Shown here in pieces: positions 16,403 to 47,749 of a stretch of DNA of 52,235 nucleotides. Source of the DNA: an uncultured Oscillospiraceae bacterium. GTDB taxonomy: Bacteria > Bacillota > Clostridia > Oscillospirales > Oscillospiraceae. Each line of letters opens with the position of its first letter. Position 1 is the first letter of the stretch. Both the position numbers and the translations under genes were made by a program. The notes beneath the pieces are model-generated. The model was not told the DNA's origin. It searched no databases and was given only the letters and a program-made list of their open reading frames with translations. Location: contig CANPXW010000005.1 of the NCBI GenBank assembly GCA_947587025.1, positions 1-52,235 on the forward strand. The letters are read 5' to 3'.

Positions 16403-16447
16403 AAAAAGCGCCCCCATCCCGCCGCTTTACGGGATGAGGGCGTTTTT
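16403..16447 (+). terminator. Intrinsic terminator after the PfkB kinase
   Basis: A long stem of about 15 bp with one mismatch (arm with GCGCCC..CATCCCG pairing with CGGGATG.GGGCG), loop CCGCTTTA region, followed by TTTTT. The A-run on the other arm could make it work leftward too. Confidence 0.8.
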
Positions 16448-42290: not shown

Positions 42291-42950
42291 TCAGTTTTCT
42301 TCCCGTTCGCTCTTTTCTCTCGGCAGATGTGCGCCTTCTTTTACATCCTTGCGCAGCAGGACCTTCTTCAGCGTGATCCAGAATATCTTCCAGTCTGTCG
42401 CGAAGCTCACATGCTCCAGGTACTCCCGGTCATACGCCGCCTTTTCCTCGTCCGGCACCAGGTCCCGGCCGTTCACCTGCGCCCAGCCCGTCAGGCCCGG
42501 CCGCAACTGGTATACTCCCATCGCCTTCCGCAGCGCGTGCACCGTCTCCTCCTGCGGGATCAGCGGTCGCGGCCCGATCAGGCTCATCTTTCCCGTCAGC
42601 ACCTGCAGCAGCTGCGGCAGCTCGTCCAGACTCGTATTGCGCAGCACCCGACCCACTCGCGTGATATACTCCTCGCTGTCGGCAAAACGGCCCGCCGCCA
42701 CATACTGCGGCGCGCTGCTCTTCATGCTCCGGAATTTCGTCAGCGTGAACGGCTCCCCGTCCTTGCCTATCCGCTGGTGCCGGAACAGCACCGGCTCCTT
42801 CATGCTGCTCAGCTTGATCACGCACGCGATCAGGAGCATCGGTATCGCCAATACCACTAAGGACAAAAGCGCCAGCACAAAATCCGCGCCGTACTTCACC
42901 TTCAGATACCGCCGCTGGCGCGCCGTCAACGTATACGCCCGCATCTTCAC
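42291..42950 (-). CDS. Polyprenyl-phosphate sugar phosphotransferase (PglC/WcaJ-like)
   Basis: 219 residues. One N-terminal reentrant membrane helix (about 25-48), then the small-PGT motifs RHQRIGKDGEPFTLTKFRSM, RNTSLDELPQLLQVLTGKMSLIGPRPLIP and RPGLTGWAQVNGRD. It transfers a sugar-1-phosphate to undecaprenyl phosphate, starting repeat-unit synthesis. The start is GTG at 42950 or ATG at 42944. It overlaps the previous PGT as GTGA in the current tract state. Two PGTs in tandem suggest alternative starting sugars. Confidence 0.92.
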   Translation of the reverse strand: MKMRAYTLTARQRRYLKVKYGADFVLALLSLVVLAIPMLLIACVIKLSSMKEPVLFRHQRIGKDGEPFTLTKFRSMKSSAPQYVAAGRFADSEEYITRVGRVLRNTSLDELPQLLQVLTGKMSLIGPRPLIPQEETVHALRKAMGVYQLRPGLTGWAQVNGRDLVPDEEKAAYDREYLEHVSFATDWKIFWITLKKVLLRKDVKEGAHLPREKSEREEN

Positions 42951-43690
42951 GCCGCCCCCTTACATACCCGTGCCGGGGCACGACAGCAAGAGAAAGCATC
43001 CGTCAGTAGGAAGAACCCCCCCCGCAGCACTACGCCTATCGTTTTAAACAGTATCTTTACGTCCGTCCATACCGACCGGCTCTTGATATATTCCACGTCG
43101 TAGCGCACCTTCTCCTCCGGACGCAGAAAATACCCGCCGTTGATCTGCGCCAGGCCCGTCAGGCCCGGCTTCACCTTCAGCCGCTCACTGAACCCGTGGA
43201 TATACGTCTCGAACTCGTCGTAGAACACCTTCCGCTCCGGGCGCGGGCCCACGAAGCTCATGTCGCCCTTCAGGATGTTCCACAGCTGCGGCAGCTCGTC
43301 CAGCCGCATCTTCCGCAGGAACGCTCCCACCTTCGTGATACGCGCGTCATCGTCTCCTCGGGACCACTGCGCCCCGTCCTTCTCCGCGTCGAGCTGCATC
43401 GTGCGGAATTTCGTCATCCGGAAGGGTTTTCCATTCTTCCCCAGCCGCTCTTGGGTAAACAGCGGCCCTCCCTCCGACGTGGCGCTCACCACCAAGGCGA
43501 TCACCACCATCGGGACGAGCAGCACCACCAGCGCCAAAGCGGACGCCGCGATGTCGAACGTCCTCTTGACGGCGCTGTATACCGGCTTGTCCCCTATATC
43601 ACCCAACGGCTCGACGTAATGCTCCCCTGTCTTTTCGTAGGGCAGTATCACCGCCGCGCTCCGGGTCTGTTCTCTCTTCTCTCTTCCCAT
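42947..43690 (-). CDS. Polyprenyl-phosphate sugar phosphotransferase, first copy
   Basis: 247 residues. Same small-PGT class: YSAVKRTFDIAASALALVVLLVPMV (membrane helix), FTQERLGKNGKPFRMTKFRTM, RKMRLDELPQLWNILKGDMSFVGPRPE and KPGLTGLAQINGGY. Typical relatives end just after VVLRG. Here the frame runs on through a G8 tract for about 25 extra residues to a GTGA overlap with the next PGT. With G7 it would stop soon after the tract (VVLRGGSSY), at the usual family length but uncoupled. Confidence 0.92.
   Translation of the reverse strand: MGREKREQTRSAAVILPYEKTGEHYVEPLGDIGDKPVYSAVKRTFDIAASALALVVLLVPMVVIALVVSATSEGGPLFTQERLGKNGKPFRMTKFRTMQLDAEKDGAQWSRGDDDARITKVGAFLRKMRLDELPQLWNILKGDMSFVGPRPERKVFYDEFETYIHGFSERLKVKPGLTGLAQINGGYFLRPEEKVRYDVEYIKSRSVWTDVKILFKTIGVVLRGGFFLLTDAFSCCRAPARVCKGAA
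43016..43023 (-). repeat. Poly-G tract (G8) at the 3' end of the first PGT gene
   Basis: Eight C on the plus strand. Current state is the coupled one (GTGA at 42950). G7 gives a stop a few codons later and uncouples the next gene. Confidence 0.88.
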
Positions 43691-43746: not shown

Positions 43747-45678
43747 TCATGCGCTCGTGTAAGAACTCTGCTCCATATTTTGCCGGACACATCTGTCCCG
43801 ATACGTCCAGCGCATCCCTATGGTGTCCAGCCTTGCGATCTGCTCCGCCGTCAAAGGACGCTGGCGGCTCCTGCCCTGCCTCGTCTGGCGCAGATTCCGT
43901 ATCCACGCGCCAAGGTTGAAACCGGTGTCCGTTTTATATTCCGCCGGCACCAGCAGGTCCCCATGCTCCCGGTAGTACCGCAGCGCCTCCAGGTAGTTCT
44001 GCTCCCATCGCACGCTGTGTACATCCCACTGCATCCCGATCTCATTCAATCTCTGGATGCGCACCGGCGTCAGCACCGTCCGCTTCTCGCCGTTCTGGTA
44101 TTGGTCCCGCAGATTGCTTATCCATTTCCCCAGCTTGAAGCCATCTTCTGTCTCATACTTCACCGGCACCAGCAGATCGCCGTGCTCACGGTAATACGCC
44201 TCGGCATATCGGAAATTGCGCTCCCACGCCGCCTCCAGGCGGTTTTCCCATACCATCCCGACGCTGTCCAGCTTCGCGATCTGCTCCGGCGTCAGCCGTC
44301 CGGCCTGCCGGCCAGAACGCACCAGCCGCTGGGTCGTGATCCACGAGCCAAGACACAGCCCGTTAGACACGTACTTCTTCGGCACCCGCAGATGCCCATG
44401 CTCGGCATAGAACGCGCTGGCCGCCTGATAATACTGCTCCCATGTGCCCGTCAGGCTGTTGTGCAGCGCCCGGAACAGCTCGCGGCAATCCCGTATCTGT
44501 TCGATCACCTCAAACCGCTCCGTCACGATCTGGCCGCCTTCGCCGGACAGATACATCCGCTGGATGGCCGTTGCCATCTCCTCCTGCAGCGCGCTGATGC
44601 TCAGCAGATTCTCAACGTTGTTCACCACGTCCAGTATCAGCGGCGTCGCCGTGTCCCCCGCTGTCAGCGCGCGGCCTATCTGCTGCTTGTAGATCGTGGG
44701 CGACACTGTCGGCCGGAACAGTATGACGCCCGACACACCGGGCACATGCACCCCTTCATTGAGCATGTCCACACAGAACAGCAGCTTCAAATGCTCGCTC
44801 TCGTCCGCCTTGAACGAGGCAAAAGCCTTACTGGTGCCGGGGTCATCCGAATACACCGTATAGCAGTGCGGCCGCGCATCTACGCCGCCGAACCACTCCG
44901 GCACATGGCCGCGCATCTGCCGCATGTGCTCCACGCTGGCACAGAAAACGATGTATTTCCCGTTCCTGTCGGTCATGTGCTTTTGGAAGATGACGTCCAG
45001 GCCGTCCGCCTGCTCCAGGGCCCTGCGCAGCGCATCCAGATACTTCTGGGCGTTGTCGCGTACGCCCCTGCTCTTCGCCCTGTCTATCCGCTGCTGCCAC
45101 ATTTCCAGGTCTTGCTGGTACTTGAACACCGTCGTCACATACTTCGGTGCCGGCAGGATGCCCCGAACGATGGCCTCGCCCAGGCTCATCTCGCTGGCCA
45201 CGTCTCCGCCGAACAGCTCCTCCGCCATATCGCGCTGGTTGTCTAGATACCGCACGCTCGTCGCTGACAGCCCCAGCACCTTCGCCGCAGGGCAGGCCGC
45301 AAGGAGCCTGTCCACGCCTGCGCCCCATATCTGGGCTCCGCACCGGTGGAACTCGTCCAGGATGATGTAGTCCGGCTGAAGCTGCTCCATCTCCTTCTCG
45401 TCCATAAGCATCAGTCGGGCGTATGTGTAAAACCGTATCGCATCGCCGGGAAAAGCCGGCTCACTACGGCGTAGGTTTTCTATCTGCGTCTTGAAGATAT
45501 GCTCGCTGGGCGAAAGCCACAGGAACCGCGCGTACGGCTCGTCCTCCACCAGCCGAAAGGCGATAAAGCTCTTTCCAGTGCCCGTGGGATGGATGACCGC
45601 CGCCCGACCCTTCTGCCCCAGAAGGCGCCGCACAGCCGCATATGCTGTTCTGTTGTGCGCGTACAGCTCTACGCTCAT
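43747..45678 (-). CDS. DEAD/DEAH helicase with three helicase-associated repeats
   Basis: 643 residues. Helicase core: Walker A HPTGTGKS (30-37), DEFH (108-111), LGLSATS, then the second RecA-like domain with NEGVHVPGVSG and QQIGRALTAG. Three C-terminal helicase-associated (HA) repeats begin near 432, 506 and 576, each with W...Y..A..YY.EHGDLLVP..Y and LG.WI..LR. It is the first gene after the invertible promoter, with GAGG 7 nt before the ATG. HA helicases are recurrent at such loci in Clostridia, but their function is unknown. Control of the long transcript is a possibility. Confidence 0.9.
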   Translation of the reverse strand: MSVELYAHNRTAYAAVRRLLGQKGRAAVIHPTGTGKSFIAFRLVEDEPYARFLWLSPSEHIFKTQIENLRRSEPAFPGDAIRFYTYARLMLMDEKEMEQLQPDYIILDEFHRCGAQIWGAGVDRLLAACPAAKVLGLSATSVRYLDNQRDMAEELFGGDVASEMSLGEAIVRGILPAPKYVTTVFKYQQDLEMWQQRIDRAKSRGVRDNAQKYLDALRRALEQADGLDVIFQKHMTDRNGKYIVFCASVEHMRQMRGHVPEWFGGVDARPHCYTVYSDDPGTSKAFASFKADESEHLKLLFCVDMLNEGVHVPGVSGVILFRPTVSPTIYKQQIGRALTAGDTATPLILDVVNNVENLLSISALQEEMATAIQRMYLSGEGGQIVTERFEVIEQIRDCRELFRALHNSLTGTWEQYYQAASAFYAEHGHLRVPKKYVSNGLCLGSWITTQRLVRSGRQAGRLTPEQIAKLDSVGMVWENRLEAAWERNFRYAEAYYREHGDLLVPVKYETEDGFKLGKWISNLRDQYQNGEKRTVLTPVRIQRLNEIGMQWDVHSVRWEQNYLEALRYYREHGDLLVPAEYKTDTGFNLGAWIRNLRQTRQGRSRQRPLTAEQIARLDTIGMRWTYRDRCVRQNMEQSSYTSA

Positions 45679-45696
45679 CCCGCATCCTCGTTTCTC

Positions 45697-45724
45697 TCAC
45701 CACATAATCCGCATTATGTGGTGA
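45697..45724. repeat. Left inverted site of the promoter switch
   Basis: A 12-bp palindromic arm pair (TCACCACATAAT and ATTATGTGGTGA) around the asymmetric core CCGC. It is the reverse complement of the right site over 27 bp, as expected for tyrosine-recombinase crossover sites placed in inverted orientation. Confidence 0.93.
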
Positions 45725-45757
45725 CAAAGGGAAAATGATCAGCCCATATTCTTTCGT

Positions 45758-45786
45758 ATTATATCCTGTTTTGGTATTGTTGTCAA
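45758..45786 (-). promoter_or_regulatory. Perfect sigma-A promoter of the glycan locus
   Basis: On the minus strand TTGACA (45781-45786) and TATAAT (45758-45763) with a 17-bp spacer. The transcript would start near 45751, cross the left inverted site and enter the helicase gene at 45678. Confidence 0.93.
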
Positions 45787-45922
45787 CAATATAGAGCAAG
45801 GGCGCGCAACAAAGAACCACTATATTTTTTACATTTTGTACAATGGAATAACAAGATTTAGTGATGAGCGCATGTAAATATGGGCGCTCATGTACTATTG
45901 CGTCTAAATGCGTCTTTTCTAG

Positions 45923-45950
45923 TCCGGTGCTGAAAGGCACCGGATCTTTT
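45923..45950 (+). terminator. Terminator inside the invertible segment
   Basis: An 8-bp stem (TCCGGTGC with GCACCGGA), 6-nt loop, followed by TCTTTTA on the plus strand. In the inverted state it would lie between the recombinase gene and the locus and stop leftward transcription. Confidence 0.7.
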
Positions 45951-45969
45951 ATGTCTGTTTTCGACTTTT

Positions 45970-45996
45970 CTCACCACATAATGCGGATTATGTGGT
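45970..45996. repeat. Right inverted site of the promoter switch
   Basis: Same palindrome with core GCGG, i.e. the reverse complement of the left site. It ends about 5 bp from the recombinase stop codon. Confidence 0.93.
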
Positions 45997-46001
45997 GTTT
46001 T

Positions 46002-46835
46002 TTACAGCAGCAGTGGCAGATGCTCTATCTGCCGCTGCTGTTCTTCTCCTGTCCGGGCGGTGTAGATGCGCGTGGTGTCGATGCTGGCGTGTCCCAGGAC
46101 GTCCGCCAGACGCACGATGTCCTTGTAGGTCTTATAATATGTCCGGGCAAACAGATGGCGCAGATTGTGCGGATATACCTTTGTGCTCACCACCCGCGCC
46201 ATATGGCCCAAGCGCTTCATCATCTTCCATATGTTGCTCCTATCCAGCGGCCGCCCTGTCCGCGTGACGAATACCGGCCCGCTGCGGATCCCCTGCCGTT
46301 TACAGTAGCTAACGAGCTCCCTGCACAGCTTTTTGGGCAGCAGGACCGTTCGGACCCGCCCTTTATTGCGTATCTCCGCCCGGCCGCGCCGCAGAATATC
46401 CACCGTTATCGCCCGCACCTCGCTGACTCGTATGCCTGTGGCGCAGATCGTCTGCAGCAGCATCTCCATCCTCTCGTTCCCCTGCTTCTTCGCCGCTGAT
46501 ACCATCCGCTCATATTCCCGCCGCGTCAGTTCCTTCTCCTGTCCGCGAAACGCGCTGCGGGGGGCCTTCAGATACCGCAGGCGCCAAACGGGCTGCCCCA
46601 TATACGTCAGAAAACTGTTCACCGCCGCCAGCATGGAGTTGACGCTACTGACAGCATATCCCCGCTGCAAATGCTCCTTGAACGCGATGAGCGTGGTCTT
46701 GTCCTCTATCACCCCGCCGCAGAACACCGCCAGCACGCCTACATCGTGCATATACTTGGCCACTGTCGCCGCCGCACACTCCCGCTCCTCCAAATGCACA
46801 CGAAACGCCTCTATCTCTTCTTTTCCTATCCGCAT
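46002..46835 (-). CDS. Tyrosine recombinase (candidate invertase of the switch)
   Basis: 277 residues. The N-terminal SAM-like DNA-binding part (about 1-95) is followed by the catalytic domain with the complete set R136 (GIRVSEVR), K158 (RNKGRVRTV), H223 and R226 (HNLRHLFA), H249 (LGHAS) and Y258 (RIYTART). Size is like XerC/D and Bacteroides or Clostridium promoter invertases. Its stop directly abuts the right inverted site, so it very likely acts there. A very strong ribosome site (GAAAGGAGG) lies 8 nt before the ATG but is part of a stable hairpin at 46842-46876. Confidence 0.95.
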   Translation of the reverse strand: MRIGKEEIEAFRVHLEERECAAATVAKYMHDVGVLAVFCGGVIEDKTTLIAFKEHLQRGYAVSSVNSMLAAVNSFLTYMGQPVWRLRYLKAPRSAFRGQEKELTRREYERMVSAAKKQGNERMEMLLQTICATGIRVSEVRAITVDILRRGRAEIRNKGRVRTVLLPKKLCRELVSYCKRQGIRSGPVFVTRTGRPLDRSNIWKMMKRLGHMARVVSTKVYPHNLRHLFARTYYKTYKDIVRLADVLGHASIDTTRIYTARTGEEQQRQIEHLPLLL

Positions 46836-46908: not shown

Positions 46909-47685
46909 TTATGCGGCATTCCTGGCGATCATACGGCCAGTGCTGTCGATGTCGTGCTCCCCGGAGAGAAGCAGCTGGCCCACCGGCACGATCTCATAGC
47001 CCTCGCTGAGCAGATACTCGATGATGCCCGGCAGCGCCTCCGGCGTATACTTGCCCGCGTTGTGGAACAGCACGATGCTCCCCGGTGCGACCTTGGACGT
47101 GACCCGCTTGTATATCTCGTCCGCGCTCAGGTCCTTCCAGTCCAGCGAATCCACGTCCCACTGGATGGGCTGGACGCCCATGTTCTCTATCGTGGTGATG
47201 ACCTGGTCGTCGTACTCCCCGTAGGGGCAGCGGAACAGCTTCACCTCGCCGCCGGTGATGGCCTCGATCTTGCCGGAGCACAAGCTCACCTCGTCGATGA
47301 TCTGCTTTTCCGACAGCTTCGCCATGTGGGGATGGTCGTCCGAGTGGTTGCCGATCTCCATACCGGCGTCCGCCAGCGCCTTCACGCTCTCCGGGTACTT
47401 ATCCACCCACTGCCCCACCAGAAAAAAGGTGGCCTTCACGCCGTATTTATTGAGCGTATCGATGAGCGTCTGCGTGGCCTCATTACCCCATGCCGCATCG
47501 AAGGTGAGGCTGACGGCCTTGTTGTCCCGCTGCACGCAGTAGACGGGCAGCTGTTTGGCCGAGGCGGACACGCCCACGATGGACGGGCTGTTCACCACCC
47601 AGAATATAGCCGCCACCGCAAGCGCCAGGCCGATCGGGCCCAGCAGCTTGCGGTGTTTCATAAGTATGGACTTGAGCTTGTTCAC
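46909..47685 (-). CDS. NodB-type polysaccharide deacetylase
   Basis: 258 residues from GTG at 47685, with GGGGG 8 nt upstream; an ATG ten codons earlier has no room for a ribosome site. One N-terminal membrane anchor (about 12-32) is followed by the NodB domain: SLTFDAAWGNE (metal Asp), GNHSDDHPHM (metal His pair), FRCPYGEYDDQVI, and a late IVLFHNAGKYTPEALPGII. It probably removes acetyl groups from peptidoglycan or another glycan outside the membrane. The TFDAAWGNE form resembles sporulation-type PdaB enzymes. It is separated from the switch by a terminator. Confidence 0.92.
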   Translation of the reverse strand: MNKLKSILMKHRKLLGPIGLALAVAAIFWVVNSPSIVGVSASAKQLPVYCVQRDNKAVSLTFDAAWGNEATQTLIDTLNKYGVKATFFLVGQWVDKYPESVKALADAGMEIGNHSDDHPHMAKLSEKQIIDEVSLCSGKIEAITGGEVKLFRCPYGEYDDQVITTIENMGVQPIQWDVDSLDWKDLSADEIYKRVTSKVAPGSIVLFHNAGKYTPEALPGIIEYLLSEGYEIVPVGQLLLSGEHDIDSTGRMIARNAA

Positions 47686-47749
47686 TGGACATACCCCCGA
47701 TAGATTTTGGTACATCCTATGTGACAGTTCGGCACGTTATGTGCCAGGC

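Follow-up and report, generated by a model that had tools for sequence, protein, structure and literature searches.

In the fim switch of Escherichia coli, a promoter lies in a short DNA segment that is inverted by an adjacent tyrosine recombinase (FimB or FimE), and a terminator acts in a phase-dependent manner. The best-known phase-variable capsules are those of Bacteroides. In Bacteroides fragilis the role of master invertase falls to Mpi, a serine recombinase that works at a distance (PMC5903667), and the UpxY proteins of Bacteroides are antiterminators (PMC5903667, PMC11892184). For the cwpV gene of Clostridioides difficile, the promoter is located outside of the inverted DNA (PMC2784873, which also mentions the E. 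coli switch), and the recombinase RecV acts on several distant switches (PMC2784873, PMC5903667). A study of the hCom2 gut community links tyrosine invertase group 35 to inverton group 139, of whose 33 members 32 come from Clostridia; its main text does not contain the word helicase, and we saw no core code described there (PMC11892184). The cps1 capsule locus of Akkermansia is under the control of an inverton, and the word recombinase is absent from the available text of that report (PMC13343947).

The window analyzed here, a stretch of 52,235 nucleotides, is contig C5 of an uncultured Oscillospiraceae genome (2.32 Mb in 154 contigs, 80% complete). We estimate a probability of about 90% that it encodes an invertible promoter, linked to its own recombinase, that phase-varies a glycan locus. 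The adjacent tyrosine recombinase would bind the 12-bp arms of two sites and exchange strands within the asymmetric core. The two cores match in the inverted sense only, so the segment would be flipped and not deleted. In the ON orientation a consensus promoter is predicted to read a gene for a helicase with HA repeats and to continue through the 29-kb locus. In the OFF orientation the promoter would be turned toward the recombinase gene, at its 3′ end; a terminator within the segment would then point at the locus and should insulate it by stopping read-through. The features are listed in Table 1.

Table 1. Features of the switch, the glycan locus and its outer flank in the window.
Feature	Position	Strand	Remarks
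Left recombination site	45697-45724		28-bp palindrome, 12-bp arms; core CCGC at 45709-45712
Invertible segment	45725-45970		246 bp between sites
Promoter TTGACA-17-TATAAT	45758-45786	minus	12/12; points left, into locus; ON as assembled
Terminator-like hairpin inside segment	45922-45945	plus	opposed to promoter; faces locus if OFF
Right recombination site	45971-45997		palindrome, inverted relative to left; core GCGG at 45983-45986
Tyrosine recombinase, 277 aa	46002-46835	minus	PF00589, 4.6e-24; presumed invertase of the switch
Polysaccharide deacetylase, outer flank	46909-47715	minus	marks same chromosomal position in G024 and G013
SF2 helicase, three HA repeats	43747-45678	minus	first gene under switch
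Initiating sugar transferase (Bac_transf)	42947-43690	minus	starts 57 bp behind helicase stop
Second initiating sugar transferase (Bac_transf)	42291-42950	minus
Remaining glycan locus	16825-42287	minus
Terminator-like hairpin, 14 pairs	16409-16442	minus	far end of locus

The inverted sites flank the promoter, and the anatomy agrees closely with the original prediction. Two sites had been described as exact reverse complements; this is correct over 27 bp (45698-45724 and 45971-45997), and the right site had been placed one base off. Their palindromic structure, with 12-bp arms around a directional 4-bp core, the perfect promoter in the 246 bp between them and the recombinase gene next to the switch, which ends 4 bp from the right site, were likewise found as described. 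The sites follow the pattern ACCACATAAT-N4-ATTATGTGGT, with the arms flanking the core. The pair is the only exact inverted repeat of at least 14 bp within 1 kb in the whole window; the longest inverted repeat in each of 30 first-order Markov windows was 12 to 15 bp. In the ON transcript (45671-45752, minus strand), the recombination site folds into a very stable hairpin closely upstream of the helicase start, which may have an effect on translation or RNA stability. A search of Rfam with positions 45500-46200 gave no match at the gathering score.

The recombinase gene has an intact reading frame. R136, K158, H223, R226, H249, and Y258 are invariant in the 14 sequences aligned, and R-K-H-x-x-R-H-Y is the residue set of tyrosine recombinases. 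The protein does not reach the curated NCBIfam cut-offs for XerA, XerC, or XerD proper (the best is XerA, with 127 bits against 220).

The prediction of a 29-kb glycan locus downstream of the switch holds, with glycan genes spread across 16825-43690. Behind the two initiating sugar transferases, the locus encodes glycosyltransferases, a TupA-type ATP-grasp protein, a UDP-sugar dehydrogenase, an EpsG-like protein, a flippase, LicD proteins, nucleotidylyltransferases, an AMP-binding enzyme and, at the far end, an MBOAT acyltransferase. We infer that the orientation of the segment sets transcription of the whole locus. The switch could instead mainly control the helicase, with the glycan genes under other, unrecognized promoters. 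The helicase is the nearest gene, unrelated single genes follow the switch in other units of the family, and terminator-like sites within the region, with the two strands counted together, exceed chance (19 versus 10.8 and 17 versus 9.7 expected from shuffles). Given this excess, a single transcript of ~29 kb is a prediction only. However, the first sugar transferase gene closely follows the helicase stop, no other promoter-like site on the locus strand scores above 10/12, and helicase and glycan genes recur together behind switches, so we consider control of mainly the helicase unlikely.

The recombinase belongs to a multi-copy family. Matches occur in 29 of 60 genomes, including the source genome (E 1e-30), with up to 15 in one genome (G013), some of them partial. 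A search of contigs for relatives yielded at least 580 confirmed matches, of which 80 were kept; among the matches listed, the closest named relatives are rabbit-gut Oscillospiraceae and Ruminiclostridium metagenome-assembled genomes, which makes a similar origin probable for the window. The best phage match to the recombinase is 42%. From 201 open reading frames at these loci we removed 41 scoring under 250 bits and merged 13 duplicates, giving a set of 147. An inverted pair scoring at least 15 is located just behind the recombinase gene in 101 of the 147. The first gene behind the switch was picked for 93 units, and 74 were scanned, each cut at 600 aa. The HA helicase is the commonest (nine by the HA model, ten by ResIII), followed by surface repeat proteins (LRR, List_Bact, SLH), GGDEF/EAL proteins, and others.

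Within the genus, the site pattern with one mismatch is present in 8 of 35 genomes, and a reversed-pattern control gave none. The sites had been expected to be conserved where the recombinase is present. Of the eight genomes, source genome included, whose recombinase is at least 67% identical, seven have the sites, as does one of the other 27, G004. The G007 genome has a 67% identical recombinase and no site, and in G030 the 67% match is interrupted by a stop codon.

Comparison with related genomes had been suggested as a way to find the flipped segment. We compared six locus pairs, five of which were chosen since earlier scans hinted at inversion, and found the segment inverted between collinear flanks in five of the six. 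A second switch of the source genome (L012, contig C43) and L185 of G025 align in the plus orientation over the flank (97.6%) and in the minus orientation over the segment (99.65% over 287 bp). The segment is also inverted between L178 and L163, with the right flank at 98.3% plus, and between L131 and L142 and between L130 and L134 (both in G013), again with collinear flanks. The fifth case is the window itself against its orthologue L051 in a sister species (G024), with flanks at 76% plus and 91 bp at 72.5% minus (E 2e-7). This locus occupies the same chromosomal position, as its deacetylase, helicase and sugar transferase are 87.5, 81, and 75% identical to those of the window, and its perfect promoter points away from the locus. 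In the sixth comparison, the segments of L047 and L185 share one orientation. Both orientations between collinear flanks are thus seen among related loci and between the window and its orthologue, not within one strain, and the shortness of the inverted match to the orthologue, only 91 bp, counts against the proposed switch.

We expect that the copy in the window still flips. A locked relic, formerly invertible and now fixed ON in the source species, would fit the single orientation in the assembly, and a pair of sites without a recombinase does exist: in G004 (L248, contig C103, ~1283-1584), two sites have reverse-complementary cores, the 5 kb read at that locus contain no family recombinase, and this is probably a switch that lost its recombinase. 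The intact recombinase frame with all invariant residues, the sites exact over 27 bp and the perfect promoter make such a relic improbable here.

The promoter direction was determined for all 101 units. It points away from the downstream gene in 66, toward it in 18, and is unclear in 17; among units with a promoter score of at least 11 and a clear direction, the numbers are 47 and 11. In assemblies of the family, the promoter more often faces away from the downstream locus than toward it. Six contigs (those of L162, L159, L073, L094, L046, and L187) stop no more than ~60 bp past the recombinase gene; that of L012 ends exactly where the second repeat ends. Such ends are what one would expect of assemblers that broke off at mixed orientations or repeats.

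Tyrosine recombinase sites have arms for binding and a core that provides homology and direction. For the 125 of the 147 recombinases whose loci extend at least 450 bp past the gene, some of them near-duplicates, we searched up to 600 bp of downstream sequence for the arms, whatever the core. Two sites were found at 77 loci, three at seven, one at 13, and none that we could recognize at 28; the last two groups count against the proposed switch. Cores are exactly reverse-complementary in all 91 site pairs at least 120 bp apart and are identical and direct in all seven pairs closer than 120 bp. At seven loci (L051, L011, L033, L069, L173, L113, and L099), extra site copies with identical cores are spaced 33 to 63 bp apart as direct repeats; they would permit deletion or a shifted breakpoint.

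For a comparison of the cores we took the 101 units, set aside 12 that did not fit the half-site model and six with identical site pairs, and retained 83 distinct pairs. These have 52 distinct cores. Left and right sites never differ from −3 to +3, the six central positions, while up to 28 of 83 pairs differ at a position in the arms. No core is self-complementary (0 of 83, with ~5.2 expected at random, p 0.0047), so both partner sites share an identical, non-palindromic overlap. Different cores are present in 59 of 61 pairs of loci within the same genome. The recombinases of the two pairs that share a core are 92 and 97% identical, and pairs with recombinases up to 91% identical already differ. 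This count hides recent copies, as identical site pairs were collapsed beforehand (three in G021, two in G033, and two in G013). The core differs even at the same chromosomal position in three species: CCGC (G000), CTAC (G024), and GTTC (G013, placed by the deacetylase). We rejected the idea that the same core means the same locus, as L182 has the CCGC core of the window and its segment does not align (scores of 21 and 22 versus 21 for shuffled sequence).

The conserved arms with mostly locus-private cores look like a homology code that should separate most switches of a genome. As the matched cores are private, most switches within one genome are predicted not to recombine with each other. 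Three switches in G021 (L161, L163, and L164) have 100% identical segments and the same sites, and could recombine mutually and reshuffle the genes behind them.

The matched cores bear on whether the palindromes are only terminators or attenuator hairpins, with no inversion. With six T behind it, the right site is scored as a terminator, and there is the strong hairpin in the leader, but a terminator does not need a matched, non-palindromic core. Here the paired cores are always reverse complements while the arms drift, segments are inverted between collinear flanks, and the sites are found beside recombinases. We regard the hairpin-only explanation as highly improbable. As in the window, a terminator opposes the promoter in 11 of 46 distinct segments whose promoter is clear, against an expectation of 0.75 from shuffles, and thus is not universal; one in the same direction is present in two of the 46 (1.0 expected).

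Tyrosine recombinases often integrate elements and this family is multi-copy, but attachment sites of an integrating element are a scarcely credible explanation for inverted sites ~140 to 380 bp apart with, in most loci, a promoter between them, and the exact site pattern has no match in viral contigs. A prophage or island was also considered and rejected, as Pfam annotation of 40 window proteins points to a glycan locus, with phage structural families absent.

The original prediction did not mention that the first gene under the switch encodes a helicase. Related helicases are present in 10 of 60 near genomes and in 5 of 291 genomes of the class (the source genome is in both sets). We tallied 21 helicase loci with a gene start and upstream DNA, counting near-identical G013 contigs once and leaving out second tandem copies, two genes without the N-terminus and one 30% match. 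Fourteen of these are behind a site pair and a tyrosine recombinase, three have just an inverted pair, weak in one case, and four have neither (L193, L226 with 575 bp of upstream sequence available, L227, and L228). Three of the 14 (L230, L231, and L232, all in G208) have a second type of switch, with segments of 1262 to 1441 bp and sites of the form TTAAGT-N5-ACTTAA, in which the arms are constant and the cores are AACAT, ATCTA, and AACGA. These segments enclose another recombinase gene, which is on the minus strand in one segment and on the plus strand in the other two, and all three switches precede an HA helicase and a sugar transferase. The helicase is found repeatedly as the leading gene of glycan loci, under no fewer than two unrelated types of switch.

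A sugar transferase gene lies within 6 kb behind the helicase at 10 of the 12 loci with at least 6 kb of downstream sequence. One exception, L050, has the helicase followed by DegT, LicD, and epimerase genes; downstream of L228, no glycan family was detected in three of five open reading frames scanned. Conversely, 12 of 24 Bac_transf genes, in six genomes, are no more than 3.5 kb behind such a helicase. The best plasmid match to the helicase is 54%. Two Ruminococcus albus 7 plasmids encode HA helicases near glycan genes (L237 and L238), one of which adjoins two site-specific integrases, and pRUMAL01 has tandem helicases; there is no convincing site pair by the two plasmid helicases examined.

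The helicase is possibly a defense or DNA repair protein, but PADLOC returned no full-length match to a defense family, only partial matches over the motor (best 8.5e-17). Six of the seven genomes searched have exactly one NusG-domain protein each, and the seventh, an incomplete metagenome-assembled genome, yielded none. With at most one NusG per genome, no UpxY- or LoaP-type paralogue is seen in these genomes, most of which are incomplete. We infer a role for the helicase in operon-length transcription or in hierarchy. Tentatively, and at less than even odds, it may be a new kind of locus-bound transcription factor. It would be produced only in the ON state and would either drive RNA polymerase through its own 29-kb operon or set the rank of that operon among rivals, and so may stand in for UpxY or LoaP in genomes that yielded no NusG paralogue; the number and sequence of the HA repeats might confer locus specificity. 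If this is true, most glycan loci would carry, with their private 4-bp cores, an insulated switch and a dedicated motor.

Invertons of this kind are already known; the core code, the helicase at the head of the locus and the terminator opposed to the promoter go beyond the original prediction. In the open-access literature we found no account of a helicase in phase-variable capsule loci, nor of variable inverton cores. The helicase is associated with glycan loci under two or more types of switch; it is unstudied and a candidate factor for operon-length transcription. The switches form a multi-copy family in gut Clostridia, and their conserved arms with mostly private cores amount to a natural set of compatible recombination sites. 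They raise the question of how a change in one core comes to be matched in its partner.

The switch in the window is probably of the same kind as inverton group 139 with invertase group 35: both are from Clostridia that are gut commensals, and both have a tyrosine-type recombinase beside the inverton (PMC11892184). Like fim, it has a promoter inside a short inverted segment, an adjacent tyrosine recombinase and a phase-dependent terminator; it differs in having one recombinase per switch, glycan cargo and a terminator of the intrinsic type inside the segment. The original prediction likened the layout to known phase-variable promoters, naming Bacteroides capsule loci and C. difficile switches. 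An inverton with its own tyrosine recombinase is strongly supported, and the two named examples fit less well. The cwpV and RecV system shares with the window Clostridia as host, a recombinase of the XerC/D type, a short inverted segment, and surface cargo, whereas in the window the promoter is inside the segment, not outside the inverted DNA, and the recombinase is adjacent (PMC2784873, PMC5903667). The capsule loci of B. fragilis are a loose parallel only. They too begin with a switch, followed by a long capsule locus with a non-enzymatic first gene (PMC5903667, PMC11892184), but the window has an adjacent tyrosine recombinase in place of the distant serine invertase Mpi, and an unrelated helicase in place of UpxY. 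The cps1 locus of Akkermansia is likewise switched by an inverton, in another phylum and with another inverted repeat motif (PMC13343947).
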